A stretch of 7,480 bases of DNA from Terriglobales bacterium (lineage in GTDB: Bacteria > Acidobacteriota > Terriglobia > Terriglobales > Gp1-AA117). Positions 1 to 7,480 of the stretch are shown here, one piece after another. A program made the position numbers and the translations under genes. A model generated the notes under the pieces. That model saw only the letters and a list, made by a program, of their open reading frames with translations. It was not told the DNA's origin and made no database searches. Where the stretch lies: positions 1 to 7,480 of the forward strand of contig JASLFF010000784.1 of assembly GCA_030150795.1 (NCBI GenBank), in the 5' to 3' direction. Position 1 is the first letter of the stretch, and the number at the start of each line of letters is the position of its first letter.

Positions 1-128
1 CGAAGAACAAGCACGCGACGAAACATTTCCATCGCAGCAAGCATCCGCTCGTCCGCTCGATTGAGCCGGGTGAAGCGTGGATCTGGTGCTATGTGGATGA
101 GCTTTCGCCGGGAGAGATTGCGGCCTGA
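1..128 (+). CDS. UBP-type zinc-finger protein, C-terminal 41 residues (5' truncated by window)
   Basis: Reading from base 3 to the TGA at 126-128 gives 41 residues with the tail signature of a ubiquitin-hydrolase-type (UBP, zf-UBP) zinc finger. It has a KNKHATKHF segment, an HPLVRS segment, then EPGEAW followed by WCYVDE. In this family, histidines in the HAxxHF...HP region together with upstream cysteines bind zinc; those upstream cysteines lie outside the window. Bacterial members are usually stand-alone proteins of roughly 80-100 residues, so about half is visible here. In eukaryotes the fold binds the free C-terminus of ubiquitin, but a bacterial ligand is not established and I do not infer one. 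Recognition rests on motif memory only. The start is outside the window. Confidence 0.8.
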   Translation, partial: KNKHATKHFHRSKHPLVRSIEPGEAWIWCYVDELSPGEIAA

Positions 129-164
129 GAGTTTTTGAAAAGCTCGTAGTCTCTCAACCTTCAT

Positions 165-197
165 CTATCTAACTATCTAACGCGGTTTTATAGATAG
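165..197. repeat. Tandem CTATCTAA pair with a downstream inverted copy
   Basis: CTATCTAA occurs twice back to back at 165-172 and 173-180. TAGATAG at 191-197 is the exact reverse complement of the first seven bases of either copy. A transcript could therefore form one of two mutually exclusive 7-bp stems. The near stem leaves an 11-nt loop at 180-190. There is no following T-run, so this is not a standard intrinsic terminator. The function is unknown and chance is possible in such AT-rich simple sequence. Confidence 0.4.
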
Positions 198-222
198 CGT
201 GAACTTTAAAAAACAAGCACAA

Positions 223-285
223 GGTCCCTCCGTCCTACTCGCGCGCTGGTAAAGCGCGCGCTCGCTTAACGGCCGTCGGGATGAC
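223..285. repeat. Intergenic element bounded by GGTCCCTC and GGGATGAC with a GC-rich hairpin
   Basis: The ends GGTCCCTC (223-230) and GGGATGAC (278-285) match the two sides of a dispersed intergenic element whose other strand reads GTCATCCC...GAGGGACC, which I recall as frequent in Acidobacteria and other soil bacteria. Between them is a strong hairpin: CGCGCGCT at 240-247, loop GGTAA at 248-252, and AGCGCGCG at 253-260, an 8-bp stem. No T-run follows on either strand. A genome-wide copy count is needed to confirm it as a repeat, since only one copy is in this window. Confidence 0.4.
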
Positions 286-327
286 GATTTTTGAAAAAGG
301 ACGATTTTTGGGAAGCGATGTTGCTAC

Positions 328-2235
328 TCATCTGCCATTCAACCAAACAAAAAACCAATGTATCGCGCTTAACCACACTGCCAGCAGCATCAGGTTCATG
401 CCAATCAACATGGCAATCACAATGAGCATGAGTCCGCCGGCAACGGTGAGCAGCGGCACAATGATCGCGTAAAGCAAAGTCATGAAGACAGTCAGCACCC
501 AGCCGCCTGCTCTTACCGGCGCGATCATGTGCGAGCCCATCTTCTGCAAGCGCTTGGCGCGCTTTACCAGAGGCGGATGAAACGAAGCGAAGCTCTGCAG
601 GCTAGACTGGCTGCGCTTCGGCTGGCTTTGCCGTCTGCCTTGCTGCGCCTGCTTAAGCCGTACGATGGCGGCCCCGTCTCCGTGGCTTGCCGCCTCGAGG
701 TCGGCGAAATTTGGTAGCTCGCCAAGACCAACAGGCAATCTTTCGCCCATCATTGTGGCCATCGCCTGCAGGCGCGCTACTGCCCGCTGGTCTCCCGTGG
801 CTGCGGCTTTTACGGTGGTGATTATTTCCTGGCGCACGCTGGGCCAGTCATTTTTTGCAAACCCTCCTGCAACCCCTGCTGTTATCGGGGACGCAATCCC
901 TCCTGCAACCGGCGTGTCATAGAGATTCGCGGCGTCCTGTGCCGACATCGTGTGTGCCGTTGATGCCCAGGCCTGAATGGCTTTGGCCATCTGCTGCTGG
1001 CTCGGCTGCTGTCCGCGCAGGCCGCTGTCGCCCTTGGGATTCACCACAAAAAGATGCGTGGCCCAACCACCGCTATCGAAAGCAGTGTTGTCTTCACTCA
1101 GGCATTGCAGCGCGCGGGCCAGCGCGTCTGGATTGCGCGTAAGTTCCACCGAACTCGCGTCAGCCAGGTAGCGGCGCGTGCGCCACAGCATGGCCATGCA
1201 CGGGCCCAACAGCACGTTCAGAAAGAACCACAGAGTGATGTTGATGGCCATGTTGGTGAACATCAGAGGAAAGAGCACGAAGCGATAGATCTTTTTCAGC
1301 AGGCCGGGATTGCCCTTGTTGAAATAGCTGCCGGTGTCATCACTATCGAGCGAGCCGGCCAGTGATTCCGCGATGGCTGCGGCATCAGCGGCTTTCTGCT
1401 CCGGAGTACCGCCGGTGAGCATGTACCGTACTACGCGCCAGACACGGCGGCGCGCGTCACCATCAAACGGAATGTTGACCAGGCTCAGCAGCAGGCCGCT
1501 GGTTTCAAAAACGCTCGTCACAGTGAACGCGATACCCAGGTCGCCGTTGCCGATGGAACCCACAAGGTGGGCCAGGATTGCCTGAAGCTGGTCGCGGTCA
1601 AGATCGTCGAGCAGGCGGCGTGAGATTACAATTCGCGCGTCATGCGCTGATGTGCCTACCGCAGCGGCGTTTGCGCCGACGGAATCGACCAGCATGATTT
1701 TTGGCGCGGGCAATCCGGCGGCGATGGCCATTTCCTGCGCTGTATCCGCAAGCTGAAGCTCTTTCAGGTCAGCCTGATTGGGCTCGCGGGCGTTCATGCT
1801 GGCCAGTGTGCCGCCTACGCCGCCATGCCGGAACAATGCCAGCATGGCAAACCACAACCCAAAGGCCACGACCATCCCGGGAAGCAGCACTAATAGAAGA
1901 CCGGCGGTCAGTTCGCCGGGATCAAGCGTGCCCCTCTGGTTGATAACATAGTCGGCCACGCGCATGCCAAGCTTAGCCAGGTCATTGGCTTGCCGCCAGA
2001 ACTCCGGCGGCAACGGCGAGAAATGGTTGACGATTTCCGCCACGATCAGCGTGCCGGCATAGAGCAGCGGCGTGAGCACAAGAGTGAGCGGAACACCCAT
2101 GATGAATGCGGCAAACGTACACAGCGCGGACATGCGCCACGTGGCGCGGCGATTGCGCTTCTGGGCGGCGAAAAAAGTTTCTGGATTGACCGGGCCAAAG
2201 TTCCGTGCGCTTGTTGTAGCTTCCGTGGGGTCCAT
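328..2235 (-). CDS. M48/HtpX-like membrane protein with degenerate active site (putative pseudoprotease)
   Basis: This 635-residue protein has the M48 (HtpX-type) peptidase layout. Hydrophobic helices lie at about 37-68 and 108-135, followed by a REPNQADLKELQLAD segment, AIAAGLPAPKIMLVDS at about 171-185 and ARIVISRRLLDDLDRDQL at about 200-217. Where the zinc motif HExxH belongs, the protein reads H223-L-V-G-S227 and continues IGNGD, so the catalytic Glu is Leu and the second His is Ser. The third-ligand motif (normally E in REYxAD) reads R-R355-Y-L-A-D, so that Glu is Arg. Only the first His remains. The C-terminal M48 motif HPPLVKRAKRL (553-563) is kept. Further hydrophobic helices occur at about 315-350 and 575-632, with a polar Q/R/S-rich stretch at about 525-550. 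At 635 residues it is about twice E. coli HtpX. The start has no clear Shine-Dalgarno, so a nearby start is possible. The frame is open throughout, which argues for a working non-catalytic protein rather than a decayed gene. Confidence 0.82.
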   Translation of the reverse strand: MDPTEATTSARNFGPVNPETFFAAQKRNRRATWRMSALCTFAAFIMGVPLTLVLTPLLYAGTLIVAEIVNHFSPLPPEFWRQANDLAKLGMRVADYVINQRGTLDPGELTAGLLLVLLPGMVVAFGLWFAMLALFRHGGVGGTLASMNAREPNQADLKELQLADTAQEMAIAAGLPAPKIMLVDSVGANAAAVGTSAHDARIVISRRLLDDLDRDQLQAILAHLVGSIGNGDLGIAFTVTSVFETSGLLLSLVNIPFDGDARRRVWRVVRYMLTGGTPEQKAADAAAIAESLAGSLDSDDTGSYFNKGNPGLLKKIYRFVLFPLMFTNMAINITLWFFLNVLLGPCMAMLWRTRRYLADASSVELTRNPDALARALQCLSEDNTAFDSGGWATHLFVVNPKGDSGLRGQQPSQQQMAKAIQAWASTAHTMSAQDAANLYDTPVAGGIASPITAGVAGGFAKNDWPSVRQEIITTVKAAATGDQRAVARLQAMATMMGERLPVGLGELPNFADLEAASHGDGAAIVRLKQAQQGRRQSQPKRSQSSLQSFASFHPPLVKRAKRLQKMGSHMIAPVRAGGWVLTVFMTLLYAIIVPLLTVAGGLMLIVIAMLIGMNLMLLAVWLSAIHWFFVWLNGR

Positions 2236-2350
2236 GAGGGCTTGAGATTAGCACCGCAACGGAGTGGCGGCAACTATCACGTTTCCCAGCAGAGAATGAG
2301 CGCTTCGCGATACAGTGTTAGAAGCACGTTTTGAGATACGGATTGGATTC
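2236..2350. promoter_or_regulatory. Divergent intergenic region between the M48-like and hydrolase genes
   Basis: Both flanking genes start outward from this 115-bp gap, so it should carry both promoters. I could not find a pair of -35 and -10 hexamers at normal spacing on either strand, and neither start has a strong Shine-Dalgarno. The regulatory role is inferred from gene orientation only. Confidence 0.35.
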
Positions 2351-3496
2351 ATGCGGACTTTATTGTCAGTTATCTTATTGTCATCTCTGATCGCGACCGT
2401 TGCGGCGCAATCGCCTTCACCAACTCCACCACCATCTTCTACGCCGACGCCTGAAGACCGGCCGACGTTGAACCGTCCGGGATCGTCGAACACCGCGCCC
2501 ACGCCCGCGGCTGCGCCGACGCCCTCTTCATCGCCTGCGGCTCAGCCGGCGCAGGCGGAACAGAATGGTGAACCGCCCAAGCCTTCCTATCCTGACCTGC
2601 TGCCGCGTTTTGACTATGACAGCCGTGCCGGACTTGAAATGCGTGAGACTGACGTGCATAAACGCGGCAATGTGCGGCTGATCGAACTCAACTATGCTGG
2701 CGCCAGCGGTGACCGCGTGCCGGCTTACCTGCTGATTCCTCCGGGCGGCGGTTCGTTTCCCGCCATCATCTGGGGACACTGGCTGATGAAAGGCTCGCCG
2801 CTCGCCAACAAAGATGAGTTCCTTGAAGAAGCCGTGGCGCTGGCCAAGTCCGGCGTGGTGTCATTGCTGATTGATGCGCCGCAGGTCCGCCACGAATGGG
2901 TTGAAGCCAACAACGACGCCGGCCCGCTGGAAACGGCAAAGCAGCAGAGTGAAGCCGCCGTGCACCAGGTCACTGATCTTCGCCGCGGCATCGATCTGCT
3001 CTACGGGCGCGCGGACGTTGATCGCAAGCGCATCGCTTACGTTGGACATAGCTGGGACGCGCATGTGGGCGCGATTCTGGCCGGAGTGGAAACCCGCATC
3101 AGCGCGTACGTGCTGATGGCCAGCGGCTATGCCGATGAAGAAGAGGCTTTCGCCAGCAAAGATCCGCAACGCATGGCGCAGATCAAGCAGGTGGGCGCGG
3201 ACAACGTCCATGAATATTTTCGCGAGTATGCGTGGGACGATCCGGTTTATTTTCTCGGCCATACTGATCGTGAAAGCATCTTTCTGCAATTTGCCTCAGG
3301 CGATCCCATCAGCAAAGAGATGGCCCAGAAATATCTTGACCGCTTCAGCTCCAAAGATAAAAAGATGGAGTTTTACAATGCTCCGCATGCACTCAACGCC
3401 GCTGCTCGCCTTGACCGCGACCGCTGGCTGCAAAAACATCTGGGCATCAAGAAGATCGATGAAAAGGAGCTGGAAGAGATTGAGCAGTTGAAGTAG
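2351..3496 (+). CDS. Secreted alpha/beta hydrolase (dienelactone hydrolase/esterase-like)
   Basis: The frame is open from a GTG at 2315, but I choose the ATG at 2351. It begins a clear signal peptide (MRTLLSVILLSSLIATVAA, cleavage after A19 with V-A-A), whereas the longer form puts twelve charged residues in front. The protein is 381 residues. A low-complexity Pro/Ser/Thr/Ala linker spans about 20-80, followed by an alpha/beta hydrolase domain from about 85. The oxyanion-side strand FPAIIWGHW, the nucleophile elbow VGHSWDAH with Ser234, an acid in FASGD (Asp318) and a histidine in NAPHAL (His346) give a full catalytic triad in the right order. The elbow is GHSWD rather than GxSxG. The likely activity is hydrolysis of an ester or similar bond outside the cytoplasm; the substrate is not predictable. 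A zinc-ribbon gene follows 34 bp downstream. The closest families by feel are dienelactone hydrolases and acetyl-xylan-esterase-like enzymes. Confidence 0.85.
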   Translation: MRTLLSVILLSSLIATVAAQSPSPTPPPSSTPTPEDRPTLNRPGSSNTAPTPAAAPTPSSSPAAQPAQAEQNGEPPKPSYPDLLPRFDYDSRAGLEMRETDVHKRGNVRLIELNYAGASGDRVPAYLLIPPGGGSFPAIIWGHWLMKGSPLANKDEFLEEAVALAKSGVVSLLIDAPQVRHEWVEANNDAGPLETAKQQSEAAVHQVTDLRRGIDLLYGRADVDRKRIAYVGHSWDAHVGAILAGVETRISAYVLMASGYADEEEAFASKDPQRMAQIKQVGADNVHEYFREYAWDDPVYFLGHTDRESIFLQFASGDPISKEMAQKYLDRFSSKDKKMEFYNAPHALNAAARLDRDRWLQKHLGIKKIDEKELEEIEQLK

Positions 3497-3530
3497 AGAC
3501 GTTCTGGCTTGCGTTGTATCATAAAAAAAT

Positions 3531-3752
3531 ATGCCGTTTCCTATCAAAGTTTGTGCCGTGTGCGCTGAGGAGTTTGAGCTGAAGCCGGACAAGCCGGGCT
3601 TTGCCAACCGCTGTCCTGCGTGCAGCGAGCCCGATGGCGCGGAGCCTGAAAGCAAGAGCAGGATGGATGCCCTTGAGCGCAAGAATGCCAAGGACGCGAA
3701 TGAAGCTCGCCGGGAGGCGATGCGCAATCTGCTATATCGCAAAGACAGTTAG
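3531..3752 (+). CDS. Small two-CxxC zinc-ribbon protein
   Basis: This 73-residue protein has two CxxC knuckles, C8-A-V-C11 and C28-P-A-C31, separated by 16 residues that include EEFEL and KPGFANR. The spacing fits a four-cysteine zinc ribbon. The second half is a charged, Ala/Glu/Lys/Arg-rich helix (about 40-68) ending in LLYRKDS. The protein is small, cytoplasmic and has no signal sequence. Its role is unknown; zinc ribbons of this size may bind nucleic acid or protein. The ATG follows an A-rich run with no Shine-Dalgarno, and a TATCAT at 3517-3522 sits about eight bases upstream, which would suit a leaderless transcript, although no -35 is evident. It could instead be translated from the hydrolase transcript 34 bp upstream. 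The cysteine pattern makes this a credible gene despite its size. Confidence 0.8.
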   Translation: MPFPIKVCAVCAEEFELKPDKPGFANRCPACSEPDGAEPESKSRMDALERKNAKDANEARREAMRNLLYRKDS

Positions 3753-3764
3753 AGCGGTTTTGGA

Positions 3765-3777
3765 GTTTACCGTAAAC
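3765..3777. other. Small hairpin after the zinc-ribbon gene
   Basis: GTTTA (3765-3769) and TAAAC (3773-3777) form a 5-bp stem with a CCG loop, 12 bases past the stop codon. There is no T-run after it, so it is at best a weak transcript-end structure. Confidence 0.25.
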
Positions 3778-3791
3778 GCAGCTAGAAACTC

Positions 3792-3846
3792 TCAGGGGCT
3801 AAAGCCCGACAATCTATCGAAGAGTACCGCAGGCATGAATGCCTGC
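3792..3846 (+). repeat. Composite intergenic repeat, copy 1 (AGGGGCTAAAGCCCG module plus tGAa hairpin)
   Basis: Module A is TCAGGGGCTAAAGCCCG at 3792-3808, identical over 17 bases to 5139-5155; its core GGGCT-AA-AGCCC is self-complementary. After exactly 20 bases comes module B, a near-perfect hairpin with GCAGGCAT at 3829-3836, GA at 3837-3838 and ATGCCTGC at 3839-3846 (8-bp stem). The element sits in the convergent gap between the zinc-ribbon gene and the coiled-coil membrane gene. I recall both modules as common in acidobacterial genomes. The function is unknown; no T-run follows the hairpin. Confidence 0.7.
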
Positions 3847-3956
3847 TCCACCCCGTTACGGTCTACATTCGCGCTGAAAATGCTATAGACCTCAGAAGAC
3901 GCGAAGCGTGGGCGCACCATCTTGAAATAGAAGCAGCGCTTATTTTCGCAAGTGGC

Positions 3957-4985
3957 CTATGCCGCGTGGCTCTGCAGAAGATAAAACCCGTAGCACAGCA
4001 CGAGGAATACGGCTTCGAGTCCGGCAAAGACCACGAAAAAGCTATTGTGTATCCGGAAAAGCAATCTGTTGTCAAAGCCCCATTCACTCGCAGGCGGACG
4101 CGCCTGCATGGCGCGATAAAGGCCGCGCGTCGTCACCACAAAGAAGTGCAGCAGCAGGCCATAAAAGCCGATCCAGAACACGACCCAGAAAAGCGGGCCA
4201 ACGCTGGAGAACAGCTCGCCCATGCCATAGTCACTGCCGCTGAATGCGACAAATAAAAATCCCAGCAGCACCAGGTTCGGCCAGAGGCCTTCAGCGGTAA
4301 TGAAGTAAAGATAATAGTCGGCCAGATTACGCGCATGGCGATTGCGAGGAAACTCTCTCTGCGCGCCCTGGCTGAACAAGCCCGCGGCCAGAAACAGCGC
4401 CAGCGAAAAAATAAGCGGGCTGCCAGAATTTACGATCGCCAGCGTGCTTTGCCGCGCGCGAAGATTATGCTCCCGCGACGACATATTTTTCTTGTACTGC
4501 TCTTCAGAGCTGCGCGACTCTTCCAGCGAATTATTCAACGCCGCAAGCGCCTGCTCGCGGCTGAGCGGCAACGCGGATATGTGCAGCTTAAAGCTTGAAT
4601 TGGGAGAACCAGAAATTCTCCTGATCTCCGCCTGCGTGGCTGAAATGATTTCTTCCTGGCGCTTGATCTCTGTCTTTGAGCTTGCCTGCAACGCCGTGAT
4701 TGCATCTTCCAGCTTGCCGGCATGGCGCGTCATTTGCCAGTTGAGGCCGGCGGCGATGAATGCAATCAGCACCAGGCCTTGCAGCGCAAACATGCCGGGA
4801 GAAATCCAGCCCGGTAATCCAGCAACGGCGGCATATGGCAGAAGCTCAGCGTTCTGATCAATAACATTCTTCTGGCGCAGCAATGGGACGGCCCCCGGCT
4901 GTTGCTGCCATTGCAGACGGAGCTGGTCCTGCGGCGTTAGCTGTACTTCGCTAACCTCGGCTGCGTCCTGGTACACCGATTCCAT
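3957..4985 (-). CDS. Coiled-coil multi-pass membrane protein of unknown function
   Basis: I do not recognise a family for this 342-residue protein. It starts with about 60 polar residues rich in Gln (LTPQDQLRLQWQQQP at about 16-30). A single hydrophobic helix follows at about 65-83, then a long polar region of about 100 residues with heptad-like, charged helical stretches at about 86-124 and 140-182. Four hydrophobic helices close the protein at about 184-205, 235-250, 262-285 and 314-336. The plan of one helix, a coiled-coil domain outside the membrane, then a four-helix bundle suggests an oligomeric membrane sensor or scaffold, but no catalytic or ligand motif is visible. There is no clear Shine-Dalgarno before the ATG, and a 6-bp hairpin lies four bases upstream of it. 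It is co-oriented with the propeller lipoprotein gene, but a 271-bp repeat-bearing gap makes co-transcription doubtful. Its 3' end converges on the zinc-ribbon gene. Confidence 0.75.
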   Translation of the reverse strand: MESVYQDAAEVSEVQLTPQDQLRLQWQQQPGAVPLLRQKNVIDQNAELLPYAAVAGLPGWISPGMFALQGLVLIAFIAAGLNWQMTRHAGKLEDAITALQASSKTEIKRQEEIISATQAEIRRISGSPNSSFKLHISALPLSREQALAALNNSLEESRSSEEQYKKNMSSREHNLRARQSTLAIVNSGSPLIFSLALFLAAGLFSQGAQREFPRNRHARNLADYYLYFITAEGLWPNLVLLGFLFVAFSGSDYGMGELFSSVGPLFWVVFWIGFYGLLLHFFVVTTRGLYRAMQARPPASEWGFDNRLLFRIHNSFFVVFAGLEAVFLVLCYGFYLLQSHAA

Positions 4986-4989
4986 CGTA

Positions 4990-5006
4990 CGTGCTTGTTT
5001 AGCACG
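4990..5006 (-). other. Hairpin just upstream of the coiled-coil membrane protein start
   Basis: CGTGCT (4990-4995) and AGCACG (5001-5006) pair as 6 bp around a 5-base loop. On the minus strand the stem ends four bases before the ATG at 4985, where a ribosome would have to bind. It could limit translation initiation or be incidental; no ligand-binding structure is evident. Confidence 0.3.
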
Positions 5007-5138
5007 GTTTTAAAATCGGGCACAAGCACCAACAGTGCATAGCCTGAATGGCACTCGCGGCAGAGACTTCCGTGAGACGTGATTCCAGCGGCTTTCTTCG
5101 CGATCACCGTCTCAGTTTCAATCCGCCATTTTATTTTT

Positions 5139-5195
5139 TCAGGGGCTAAAGCCCGGATTATTTTGAAGCACTTGCGGCACGACTGAAGTCGTGCC
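5139..5195 (+). repeat. Composite intergenic repeat, copy 2 (AGGGGCTAAAGCCCG module plus tGAa hairpin)
   Basis: Module A at 5139-5155 is identical over 17 bases to copy 1. After exactly 20 bases of unrelated sequence comes module B: GGCACGACT at 5176-5184, GA at 5185-5186 and AGTCGTGCC at 5187-5195, a 9-bp perfect stem. The arms differ completely from those of copy 1, yet the central TGAA and the spacing are kept. It lies between the propeller lipoprotein gene and the coiled-coil membrane gene, in the same orientation as copy 1. Confidence 0.7.
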
Positions 5196-5256
5196 CTGAC
5201 ACTTGTCTTCATCAAGGACACTTTTTCCGCACCTCTTTAGCCAATCACAAACGCCC

Positions 5257-6390
5257 CTAGCGCCGCACAACCGTTATTGCCGTTGCAGCCGTTGCCACGC
5301 CCAAGGGCGAGCCCTTGACTGCCTGCAGCGCGCCATTCGATGCGATATTAAAAGCCGCGATATCGTGGCTTCCCTGCTCGGTCACATACAAGAAAGAAGT
5401 CTCCGGATCCACGGCAACGGCGGAAGGGCCAACGCCTCCGGTGGGGAAAGGAGATCCGGTCAACGCGCCCAGAGCGCCGGAACCAGCATCAATGGCATAG
5501 GCAGAAACATTGTTTGACGCGCTGTTGGCGGCATACAAGAGCGCTCCCTGCGGATCAATGCCCAGCCCAATGGGCGCAGCGCCCGCGGCAAATGGAGAAC
5601 CGTTGATTGGAGTAAGCCCGCCACCGGTTTGAATTGCAAATCCCGCAACCGCATTGTGGGCAGGATCCGTCACATAGAGGAAACGCCCGGAGTGTTCCAC
5701 CGCGATTGAAGTGGGTGTTGCGCCTGCGCCCACTGAGGTGGGTAGTCCGGCTTGCGCCAGCTGTCCATTCCCGCTGATATTAAACACTGCTATGGTGCCT
5801 TCAGCGCCATTGGCCACAAACAGAAAGTTGCCCGTGGGAGAAATTGCTATAGACGAAGGATGCGATGCCGGCACAATTGGAAATGGCGAACCGGAAAGCA
5901 CACCCAGACTCCCCGTGCCAGGATCAACCGTGTAGGCCGTAACGTTGCCGGCCGTCTGGTTGGCCGTAAACAGGAACGGAGCCGTGGGCGACATCACCAG
6001 TGAAACGGGTCCTTTGTCGGTGGCAAAAATATTGGGAGGATTCGTAGGGTTAACAATACTGATGCTCGTGGGCACGGAAAGATTGCCGTTGCTCGCGTTA
6101 ATGTCCAGCAAGGTCACATCACTGCCGGCAAAATCGCTTATATAAAGGAAGTCGCCGGAAGTGTGCGGCTCCAGCCCTGACGGATTGGATCCGACGGGAA
6201 AATTCGGCGTCCCCAGAGGCACAAGCGTTCCATCGGATTGCACGCGGAACTGAAAAGCCTCATTGGTTCCCTGCCCTGTTACATACACAAATTCGTTGTG
6301 TCCGCTGGCGCATCCGTTCAAAAAAACGGCCACGCACACCGCTAGAAACGCTATTACACCGTAAAAGGCCTTCGACTTCCGTGCCCTCAT
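5257..6390 (-). CDS. Lipoprotein with seven-bladed YVTN/lactonase-type beta-propeller
   Basis: The frame extends up to 6456, but the ATG at 6390 is preferred. AGGAGA lies four bases before it, and it begins a lipoprotein signal: MRARKSK, a hydrophobic stretch, then the lipobox LNGC with Cys27. The mature protein is a propeller. Seven repeats begin with an aromatic or leucine strand such as FVYVT, FLYIS, FLFTA, FLFVA, FLYVT, LLYAA and FLYVT at about residues 34, 81, 139, 189, 237, 285 and 333, at 47-58-residue spacing. Repeat ends often read GSPF. The protein ends in AITVVRR, which could supply the closing strand. This matches the 6-phosphogluconolactonase-like (lactonase) superfamily at its usual length for the 377-residue form. 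Members in this kind of lipoprotein context are often non-enzymatic surface or binding proteins, so I do not assign lactonase activity. It is predicted to be membrane-anchored on the extracytoplasmic side. No partner gene is adjacent. Confidence 0.87.
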   Translation of the reverse strand: MRARKSKAFYGVIAFLAVCVAVFLNGCASGHNEFVYVTGQGTNEAFQFRVQSDGTLVPLGTPNFPVGSNPSGLEPHTSGDFLYISDFAGSDVTLLDINASNGNLSVPTSISIVNPTNPPNIFATDKGPVSLVMSPTAPFLFTANQTAGNVTAYTVDPGTGSLGVLSGSPFPIVPASHPSSIAISPTGNFLFVANGAEGTIAVFNISGNGQLAQAGLPTSVGAGATPTSIAVEHSGRFLYVTDPAHNAVAGFAIQTGGGLTPINGSPFAAGAAPIGLGIDPQGALLYAANSASNNVSAYAIDAGSGALGALTGSPFPTGGVGPSAVAVDPETSFLYVTEQGSHDIAAFNIASNGALQAVKGSPLGVATAATAITVVRR

Positions 6391-6394
6391 TGAA

Positions 6395-6400
6395 TCTCCT
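6395..6400 (-). promoter_or_regulatory. Shine-Dalgarno AGGAGA that fixes the propeller lipoprotein start
   Basis: TCTCCT on the plus strand reads AGGAGA on the minus strand and ends four bases before the ATG at 6390. It is the clearest ribosome binding site in the window and favours this start over the upstream in-frame ATG at 6456. Confidence 0.75.
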
Positions 6401-6637
6401 AAGCCTGCAATTGAAAGAAAGTAAAGGATACATGAAATTACGCCAGCAATCAGCAATCAGCCGTCAGCACGCAGCCGGACGGAGTTCACCCCACCTTCTG
6501 AGAAGAACGCCGAGAGGGCCGTTTCATGCAGGATATGTTTCAGGCCGCTCAGCTCAGTTCGAATGAGACGGTGACCGAGGCAAAAAACCAAGATCTTCAA
6601 CCACAAGGTCGAAAAACCAATTTTCATGAGCTTGCGC

Positions 6638-6650
6638 GGGCCGAAGGCCC
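6638..6650. other. GC-rich short hairpin
   Basis: GGGCC (6638-6642) and GGCCC (6646-6650) form a 5-bp stem with a GAA loop. It has no T-run on either side, so it is not called a terminator. Confidence 0.3.
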
Positions 6651-6695
6651 TGGATGACAAAGGACACGAAGGAACACAGAGGAAGTAGCAGAGAC

Positions 6696-6769
6696 CGGAA
6701 AAGCAAAACTTACCACGGAGGGAGGAGATCGGGTGATCCGGTGATCGGAAAACAAAACCTACCCCGGAG
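6696..6769. repeat. Imperfect 25-bp direct repeat (CGGAAAA..CAAAAC.TACC.CGGAG) flanking a GATC-rich octamer array
   Basis: The 25 bases at 6696-6720 recur with one deletion and a few substitutions at 6746-6769, a period of 50 bp. Between them is a short tandem array of an octamer close to GATCGGGT: 6727-6734, 6735-6742 with one change, and a partial copy at 6743-6748. The unit resembles the dispersed 'accacggagacacggag' text seen in many environmental bacterial genomes. It has no coding value. Confidence 0.55.
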
Positions 6770-6807
6770 CACTGAGACACGGAGAACAGCCATGCGGCTG
6801 GCATCCA

Positions 6808-7395
6808 TCATGCTGAATCTGCCGAACGCCGCCACCGTATCAGCAGCATGATTGCGACTGCCCCATTCATCAGAACAAGTGTTGCAGGATAGAGCCAGGT
6901 CGCCAATGAATAGGATTGCAGCGCAAAAAGCGATGGAACGTATTTCGCACTGTTCAGCGCAAATGAACTGACGCTGTCCTTTCGGGGCTGCATCCAGCCT
7001 TTCTTGATTGTCGATCCGTATCCTAAAACGTCAGTAGCAGTTGCCAGAATGGCGGATTGTGTTGGATTTTTTGAAAGCAGGTAGTAGGCGAACACTATCA
7101 GCCCTGCAGCCAAACAAAACCAATCGAAGAACGAAAAATGCCATTTGTCTTTGAAAAAACTAATGGCGCCGATCAGAAAACAAATGAGCGCCGTAAAGCC
7201 GACTACCCAACTTCCGGCCCCTGCTCCTTGTGAAATCTGCACCAGGTAAACCACTCCCGTAACAAATCCCCACAAAAACCAGGAAAACGGATGCGGACGA
7301 ACACCATCCTCCCTAGTGGTCTGCCAGATGTAAATCGTAAAAGCAAGGACCATCAGGAGAACGGACAACACGCCCATGAGGAATTTAAAGGTCAT
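6808..7395 (-). CDS. Seven-helix membrane protein with internal duplication, PQ-loop/SWEET-like
   Basis: This 195-residue protein is almost entirely membrane-embedded, with likely helices at about 4-25, 37-55, 64-84, 90-107, 113-129, 142-160 and 167-187. The two halves look alike. A Pro-His at 34-35 before FSWFLWGF and a Pro-Arg at 137-138 before DSVSSFAL each follow a helix and a short charged loop. Each is followed by a helix, a loop with an aromatic (GAGSWVVG, SLATWLYP) and another helix. The three-plus-one-plus-three plan with repeated proline motifs is that of PQ-loop/SWEET-type proteins, which carry sugars, amino acids or other small solutes. The canonical PQ pair is PH and PR here, and identity is low, so the family is an inference. 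A transport role is possible but unproven. No Shine-Dalgarno is evident upstream of the ATG; an in-frame Met at residue 7 is an alternative start. No neighbour shares an operon with it within the window. Confidence 0.78.
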   Translation of the reverse strand: MTFKFLMGVLSVLLMVLAFTIYIWQTTREDGVRPHPFSWFLWGFVTGVVYLVQISQGAGAGSWVVGFTALICFLIGAISFFKDKWHFSFFDWFCLAAGLIVFAYYLLSKNPTQSAILATATDVLGYGSTIKKGWMQPRKDSVSSFALNSAKYVPSLFALQSYSLATWLYPATLVLMNGAVAIMLLIRWRRSADSA

Positions 7396-7480
7396 TTGTT
7401 ACCGATTGGCTAACGGATTCTAATAGGGACCTGACGGCAAACTGATAGCGGGCAAACCTTACCGCTGATTGAACTGATTT

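Follow-up and report, generated by a model that had tools for sequence, protein, structure and literature searches.

A predicted M48 pseudoprotease family from Acidobacteriota and its genomic association with a LemA subtype

To our knowledge, genes for LemA and an M48 protein are widespread neighbours whose joint role is unclear, and a proposal from comparative genomics reportedly associates GIDE, LemA and HtpX in prokaryotes. The iRhoms are repurposed inactive proteases. Two papers on piroplasmid proteases (PMC9965338, PMC8621943) contain both 'pseudoprotease' and 'M48', and inactive M48 homologues of eukaryotic parasites may therefore be on record. Here we describe a gene of a Terriglobales bacterium whose product matches the M48 family and lacks most of its zinc-protease site. 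The gene lies in a window of 7,480 nucleotides, the whole stretch of DNA that was analysed (assembly GCA_030150795.1, contig JASLFF010000784.1, positions 1 to 7,480 of the forward strand). Neither a bacterial M48 pseudoprotease nor a LemA-M48 pair, nor any paper on the joint role of the two, was found among the matches listed in the open-licence literature (titles and abstract starts), and PMC6737893, which was listed for LemA and HtpX, does not mention LemA in its main text.

The described M48 proteins differ from this one in several respects. BepA, Ste24p and ZMPSTE24 are zinc enzymes, unlike the family studied here, and BepA is periplasmic with a tetratricopeptide repeat domain. The fourth zinc ligand of BepA is H246, the histidine of the HPX4R 'plug' motif, and its protease-dead mutant is harmful, failing to complement and increasing vancomycin sensitivity (excerpts of PMC7950410). 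BepA both promotes the maturation of LptD and degrades it, and the protease-dead E137Q form keeps part of the maturation effect (excerpts of PMC8423444). BepA offers a precedent for a non-proteolytic M48 role, though with a protease-dead form that is only partly functional. When compared to HtpX (NCBIfam equivalogs, PDB 3cqb), the family falls far under the cut-offs of 245-422 bits and is without the zinc site. The active M48 proteases linked to LemA (most ~350 amino acids; L067-L072) likewise have an M48 domain, an HPX4R-type plug, LemA next door and, by eye, a similar N-terminal segment. In contrast to the dead family, they carry HExxH with REYLADA or REFLADA, have LemA upstream instead of downstream and, judged by landmark spacing, lack the C-terminal helix region as well as ~50 residues between the metal-site helices and ~120 in front of the plug. 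MamO (excerpts of PMC4794232) is a further repurposed inactive protease; like our family, MamO and the iRhoms keep a protease fold under selection without catalysis, and they belong to other protease clans.

Loss of the metal site in the window protein and its family

The gene occupies positions 328-2235 of the minus strand as an uninterrupted frame of 635 amino acids (stop codon at 328-330), and its product matches PF01435 Peptidase_M48 (E 4.4e-15; 56.4 bits against the Pfam cut-off of 20.3). A first-pass annotation, made from the letters of the sequence, had read it as a likely pseudoprotease, and the positions and residues that it gave all proved correct. HLVGS replaces HExxH at residues 223-227 (1555-1569, minus strand, as for all features of this gene), with Glu changed to Leu and the second His to Ser, and RRYLAD (1159-1176) places Arg355 (1171-1173) in the position of the third-ligand Glu and keeps Asp359 (1159-1161). 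The surrounding motifs are AIAAGLPAP (1702-1728), IGNGD (1540-1554), YLADASSVELTRNP (1129-1170) and HPPLVKR (559-579), the last being the HPX4R active-site plug with His553 and Arg559 retained. His394 (1054-1056) lies in a WATHLF motif and is present in 248/248 family sequences and 10/12 aligned intact relatives. A C-terminal hydrophobic helix region, placed by the structure model at residues 579-634 (334-501), sets the protein apart from the short intact relatives, which end soon past the plug.

HLVGS and HExxH are truly aligned positions, because an alignment with the HtpX-domain structure 3cqb superposes both stretches, with 'ailahlvgsigngdl' of the window protein over 'AVLAHEVSHIANGDM'. 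The cut-offs of the HtpX NCBIfam equivalogs were not reached (best 98.6 bits against 355), and several HtpX models match below cut-off. The annotated loss of the zinc site stood for two ligands and the catalytic Glu; it needs refinement in that the plug His553 corresponds to the fourth BepA-type ligand and is retained together with H223, leaving two of the four ligands in place.

To follow these positions we used 248 family sequences, namely the query, 240 database proteins and seven loci. The database proteins are the best 120 of 1104 hits and the best 120 of 1101 hits from a second search that started from five divergent family members; these two sets partly overlap, and the 248 contain at least one duplicate (P0123 = L065). 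The catalytic Glu (position 224) was present in 0/248 sequences, the second-His position 227 held Ser in 248/248 and His in none, and the third-ligand position 355 never held Glu (Arg in 191, Lys in 45, Ile in 7, Val in 4, Cys in 1). Since the same losses recur in 248/248 sequences, the loss of the site is far from chance. The first His (223) was retained in 220/248, with Ser, Gln, Ala or Gly in the other 28, and plug position 553 was His in 202, Phe in 42 and Tyr in 4. Asp359, the plug Arg559, Glu159, Glu168, Asp232 and Glu244 were invariant (248/248). Besides the residues of the old site, twelve His/Asp/Glu columns were >= 97% conserved and might conceivably supply a metal site elsewhere in the protein, though nothing seen in the 248 sequences indicates one. 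Family members have a median length of 628 amino acids (range 547-753).

The window clade, comprising the query and the best 120 of 1104 relatives, carries HLVGS (107), HLIGS (13) or HMVGS (1) and RRYLADA in all 121 sequences, and is uniform at H223, S227, R355, H394, H553 and R559. Close relatives with an intact HExxH had been named beforehand as the observation that would speak against a pseudoprotease; none was seen among these 120. Twelve aligned intact M48 relatives, picked by the HExxH pattern and therefore carrying it by construction, have Glu at the third-ligand column in 12/12 and conserve both Asp359 and Asp232 in 12/12.

We also observed that Lys355 pairs with Phe or Tyr at position 553 in 44/45 sequences, and Arg355 with His553 in 191/191. 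This could possibly mean that the plug is coupled to the vacated metal site, or simply reflect the history of one clade; the covariation is no proof of contact, because Lys355 with Phe/Tyr553 follows one clade.

The ratio of nonsynonymous to synonymous substitution (dN/dS, Nei-Gojobori) was 0.119, 0.128 and 0.168 for the window gene against its three nearest loci L034, L031 and L033, indicating purifying selection. Across all 36 pairs of nine loci it ranged from 0.12 to 0.40, the values of distant pairs being rough because synonymous sites are near saturation; the L032 protein entered the comparison without its first residues. None of the nine coding sequences contains a stop, and codons inside the dead site vary synonymously with their residues unchanged. 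When the site columns were excluded from tree building, the 34 family rows still fell together on a single side of a branch (SH-aLRT support 100); the family stem is long, and the tree tool warns of long branches meeting at the family branch. The predicted structure of the window protein is an M48 fold. With the loss of the site recurring throughout a family on one side of a branch, these data strongly suggest, at the level of sequence, a pseudoprotease whose retained fold is under selection for some non-catalytic role, as first proposed. By the same evidence, the window gene is not a decayed copy.

A LemA subtype as genomic partner

Most of the named close relatives belong to Candidatus Angelobacter or to other Acidobacteriota/Terriglobia, with a few bearing other phylum labels as deposited. 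The family is uncommon, being present in 2/297 phylum, 5/200 order and 4/399 class genomes (each count includes the centre genome). The hit lists behind the 248 sequences favour proteins that resemble the query. In the search of the 399 class genomes, which is less biased in this respect and scored three candidates per genome, the weakest family member reached 668 bits and the best other protein 78 bits, and the best non-family matches were intact M48 proteins. An M48 match at E 1e-6 occurs in 226/399 class genomes, only four of them to the pseudoprotease family. Canonical HtpX was rejected as the nearest relative: the best non-family matches are LemA-linked proteins, and the lower-ranked L049-L064 have no LemA in their short flanks. 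A mobile stress-tolerance island was likewise rejected as the source, with no plasmid match at E 1e-5.

Among the ten best intact M48 loci (L039-L048), LemA lies immediately upstream of the M48 gene in all eight that were fetched as regions, and within the short flanks of the remaining two. LemA is immediately downstream of the family gene in five of five divergent loci (L003, L030, L032, L065, L066), so that it adjoins the gene in 5/9 loci with flanks; in the window, as in L031, L033 and L034, the gene has no LemA neighbour. Each of the eight family genomes that were examined carries 1-3 copies of LemA. The LemA tree gathers those copies that adjoin a pseudoprotease gene into a single clade (local support 0.978), whose sister group is poorly supported (0.68). 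One unlinked LemA each from G001, G002 and G350 falls inside this clade, grouped with the G260 copy (0.968), and the cognate subtype is thus present in 8/8 gene-bearing genomes examined. None of the other LemA copies in these genomes belongs to the group linked to short intact M48 proteins.

Beside the unlinked LemA stands a gene for a pyridoxal-phosphate-dependent protein of sulfur-amino-acid type (G001, G350) or a nitronate-monooxygenase-like protein (G002), and the other flank differs. By names read from translations, these are the two genes after LemA in L030, which suggests that one flank of the unlinked LemA has been preserved. The pseudoprotease and its divergent hydrolase-like neighbour seem to lie elsewhere than LemA, with the direction of this move an inference.

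To assess co-occurrence, a profile of eight cognate LemAs was searched against the 399 class genomes, scoring eight candidates per genome. Four sequences reached 325-351 bits, and the next 229; their genomes (G260, G350, G492, G560) are identical to the four with the pseudoprotease. Because the four LemAs sat in the profile, it was rebuilt with each group left out: held-out cognate LemAs then scored 285-310, and none of 38 further LemA loci exceeded 233. Fisher's test on the four-genome overlap gave 1e-9, ignoring kinship.

Another LemA in G001 stands before a DUF2207 protein (L075), an arrangement seen by eye in three more loci. This made a DUF2207_C match near the family C-terminus tempting; we rejected it, as the scores (P0121 24.3, P0194 22.5, P0123 16.7 bits) fall below the cut-off of 33, and such matches may reflect transmembrane helices only.

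Genes around the pseudoprotease in the window

A divergent alpha/beta-hydrolase-like gene (2351-3496, plus strand; Pfam matches below cut-off) has a presumed start, as assigned here, that lies 115 bases away from that of the pseudoprotease gene, and its product carries a Pro/Ser-rich stretch near the N-terminus; it stays beside the pseudoprotease in L030, L031, L033 and L034. On the other side, the 327 bases between the gene and the window edge hold the C-terminal end of a convergent UBP-type zinc-finger gene (1-127, plus strand), assigned to PF02148 via its L034 orthologue, with 88% identity over 41 residues to that L034 neighbour. Three further genes lie on the minus strand. The first (3957-4985) encodes a 342-amino-acid protein that matches neither Pfam (E up to 0.1) nor NCBIfam models and has a C-terminal half that is hydrophobic by eye, the second (5257-6456) a lactonase-type seven-bladed propeller protein (PF10282) with a lipoprotein-like N-terminus by eye, and the third (6808-7395) a 195-amino-acid protein, hydrophobic by eye, with no Pfam or NCBIfam match.

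Possible roles of a non-cleaving M48 protein

The explanation that we favour, and consider reasonably probable, is an M48 protein that lost catalysis and persists as the partner of a dedicated LemA, with which it would form a complex, itself being the membrane component and no longer cleaving. It draws on the site loss recurring in all inspected sequences, purifying selection, the predicted M48 fold, and linkage and co-occurrence with a LemA subtype. The ancestor would most likely have been a catalytically active M48 protease whose gene adjoined that of LemA. The simplest course would be a single loss of catalysis at the family's base, through the changes of Glu to Leu, of the second zinc His to Ser and of the third-ligand Glu to Arg or Lys; the fold would have been retained, as would the plug Arg and a dedicated LemA as partner. 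Genomic association suggests that the pseudoprotease would bind LemA as its membrane partner; client proteins would probably be bound through the old substrate groove, and the basic residue at 355 may help to fill the vacated metal site. More tentatively, a dedicated LemA-M48 complex could have discarded proteolysis entirely, which would show that the pairing has a core function independent of cleavage; the vacated site, with its basic residue and invariant Ser, might then form a pocket for LemA or a client.

Several points weigh against this explanation. LemA is not adjacent in the window's own clade, the LemA of the window genome is deduced from relatives, and the association with LemA comes from genomic data. 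The four-genome overlap ignores kinship, with four of the LemA sequences in the profile, and family or LemA members may be missed because few candidates were scored per genome (3 and 8, respectively). Only the 240 hits nearest the dead members were inspected, and weak metal binding may persist in the window clade, where two BepA-type ligands are left. The intact comparison loci were found by the family profile and picked by the HExxH pattern, and the two trees disagree on the closest intact group, which would be L041-L044/L067 by the LemA tree (0.68) and L045/L072 by the M48 tree, the latter with a long-branch warning. Foldseek alone gave no hit at E < 0.001, and the alignment feeding the structure model included four intact M48 rows.

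Inactive rhomboids bind substrates or the active protease and tune its activity, and the pseudoprotease could similarly be a decoy or regulator that binds HtpX or its substrates. The preserved fold and plug Arg fit this, as does an HtpX-length frame (278-333 amino acids, sharing 42-45% identity with the intact LemA-linked M48 used as query) that was found in 6/8 family genomes (G001, G002, G350, G395, G492, G560) and answers the earlier suggestion to look for a second, intact HtpX gene. Counting all M48 matches, G001, G002 and G003 have 7, 12 and 9, family member included, and most of the other loci returned from them carry HExxH. However, the link is unspecific, since M48 matches are common in class genomes that lack the pseudoprotease (226/399 against 4), and no such frame was found in G003 and G260 (completeness not given). 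The specific genomic partner is LemA, and the eight genomes yielded nothing closer to the short LemA-linked protease, a result more in keeping with replacement than with a decoy that accompanies its own active twin. We therefore regard a decoy as unlikely. In G003, one M48 match (C191:221-740, L018) is split over two frames, either because the gene is broken or because the assembly is faulty there.

Quite unlikely, in our view, is a membrane holdase or chaperone that works independently of LemA, akin to the chaperone-like activity of BepA. The structure model retains the M48 fold, and BepA aids LptD maturation even, in part, as E137Q (excerpts of PMC8423444), but the protease-dead form fails complementation and worsens vancomycin sensitivity (excerpts of PMC7950410), and the linkage and co-occurrence with LemA would be left unexplained. 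For a holdase or an HtpX regulator we found no specific support; the evidence points to LemA instead.

Very unlikely is a continuing enzymatic or metal-binding function at a remodelled site built from Ser227, His223, Asp359, His394, Arg/Lys355, His553 or other conserved acids. His223, Ser227 and Asp359 do lie at the old active site, and Ser227, Asp359, His394, Arg559, Glu159, Glu168, Asp232 and Glu244 are invariant. A set that depends on His223, His553 or residue 355 is not universal, however, because His223 is missing in 28/248, His553 in 46/248, and position 355 varies (R/K/I/V/C); Asp359, Asp232 and His394 need no new function, since they are conserved in intact relatives (12/12, 12/12 and 10/12). 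Finally, a relaxed, decaying gene would account for the lost catalytic residues and has a negligible chance of being correct given the absence of stops in nine coding sequences, dN/dS of 0.12-0.40 in 36 pairs and the median length of 628 amino acids.

In conclusion, the source names 'Zn-dependent protease with chaperone function' and 'M48 family metalloprotease' are misleading for this family. If the pairing with LemA holds true, the family would be a natural case of a LemA-M48 pair that has outlived the activity of its protease half, which would separate a scaffold role from cleavage and make the joint role of LemA and M48 proteins testable.
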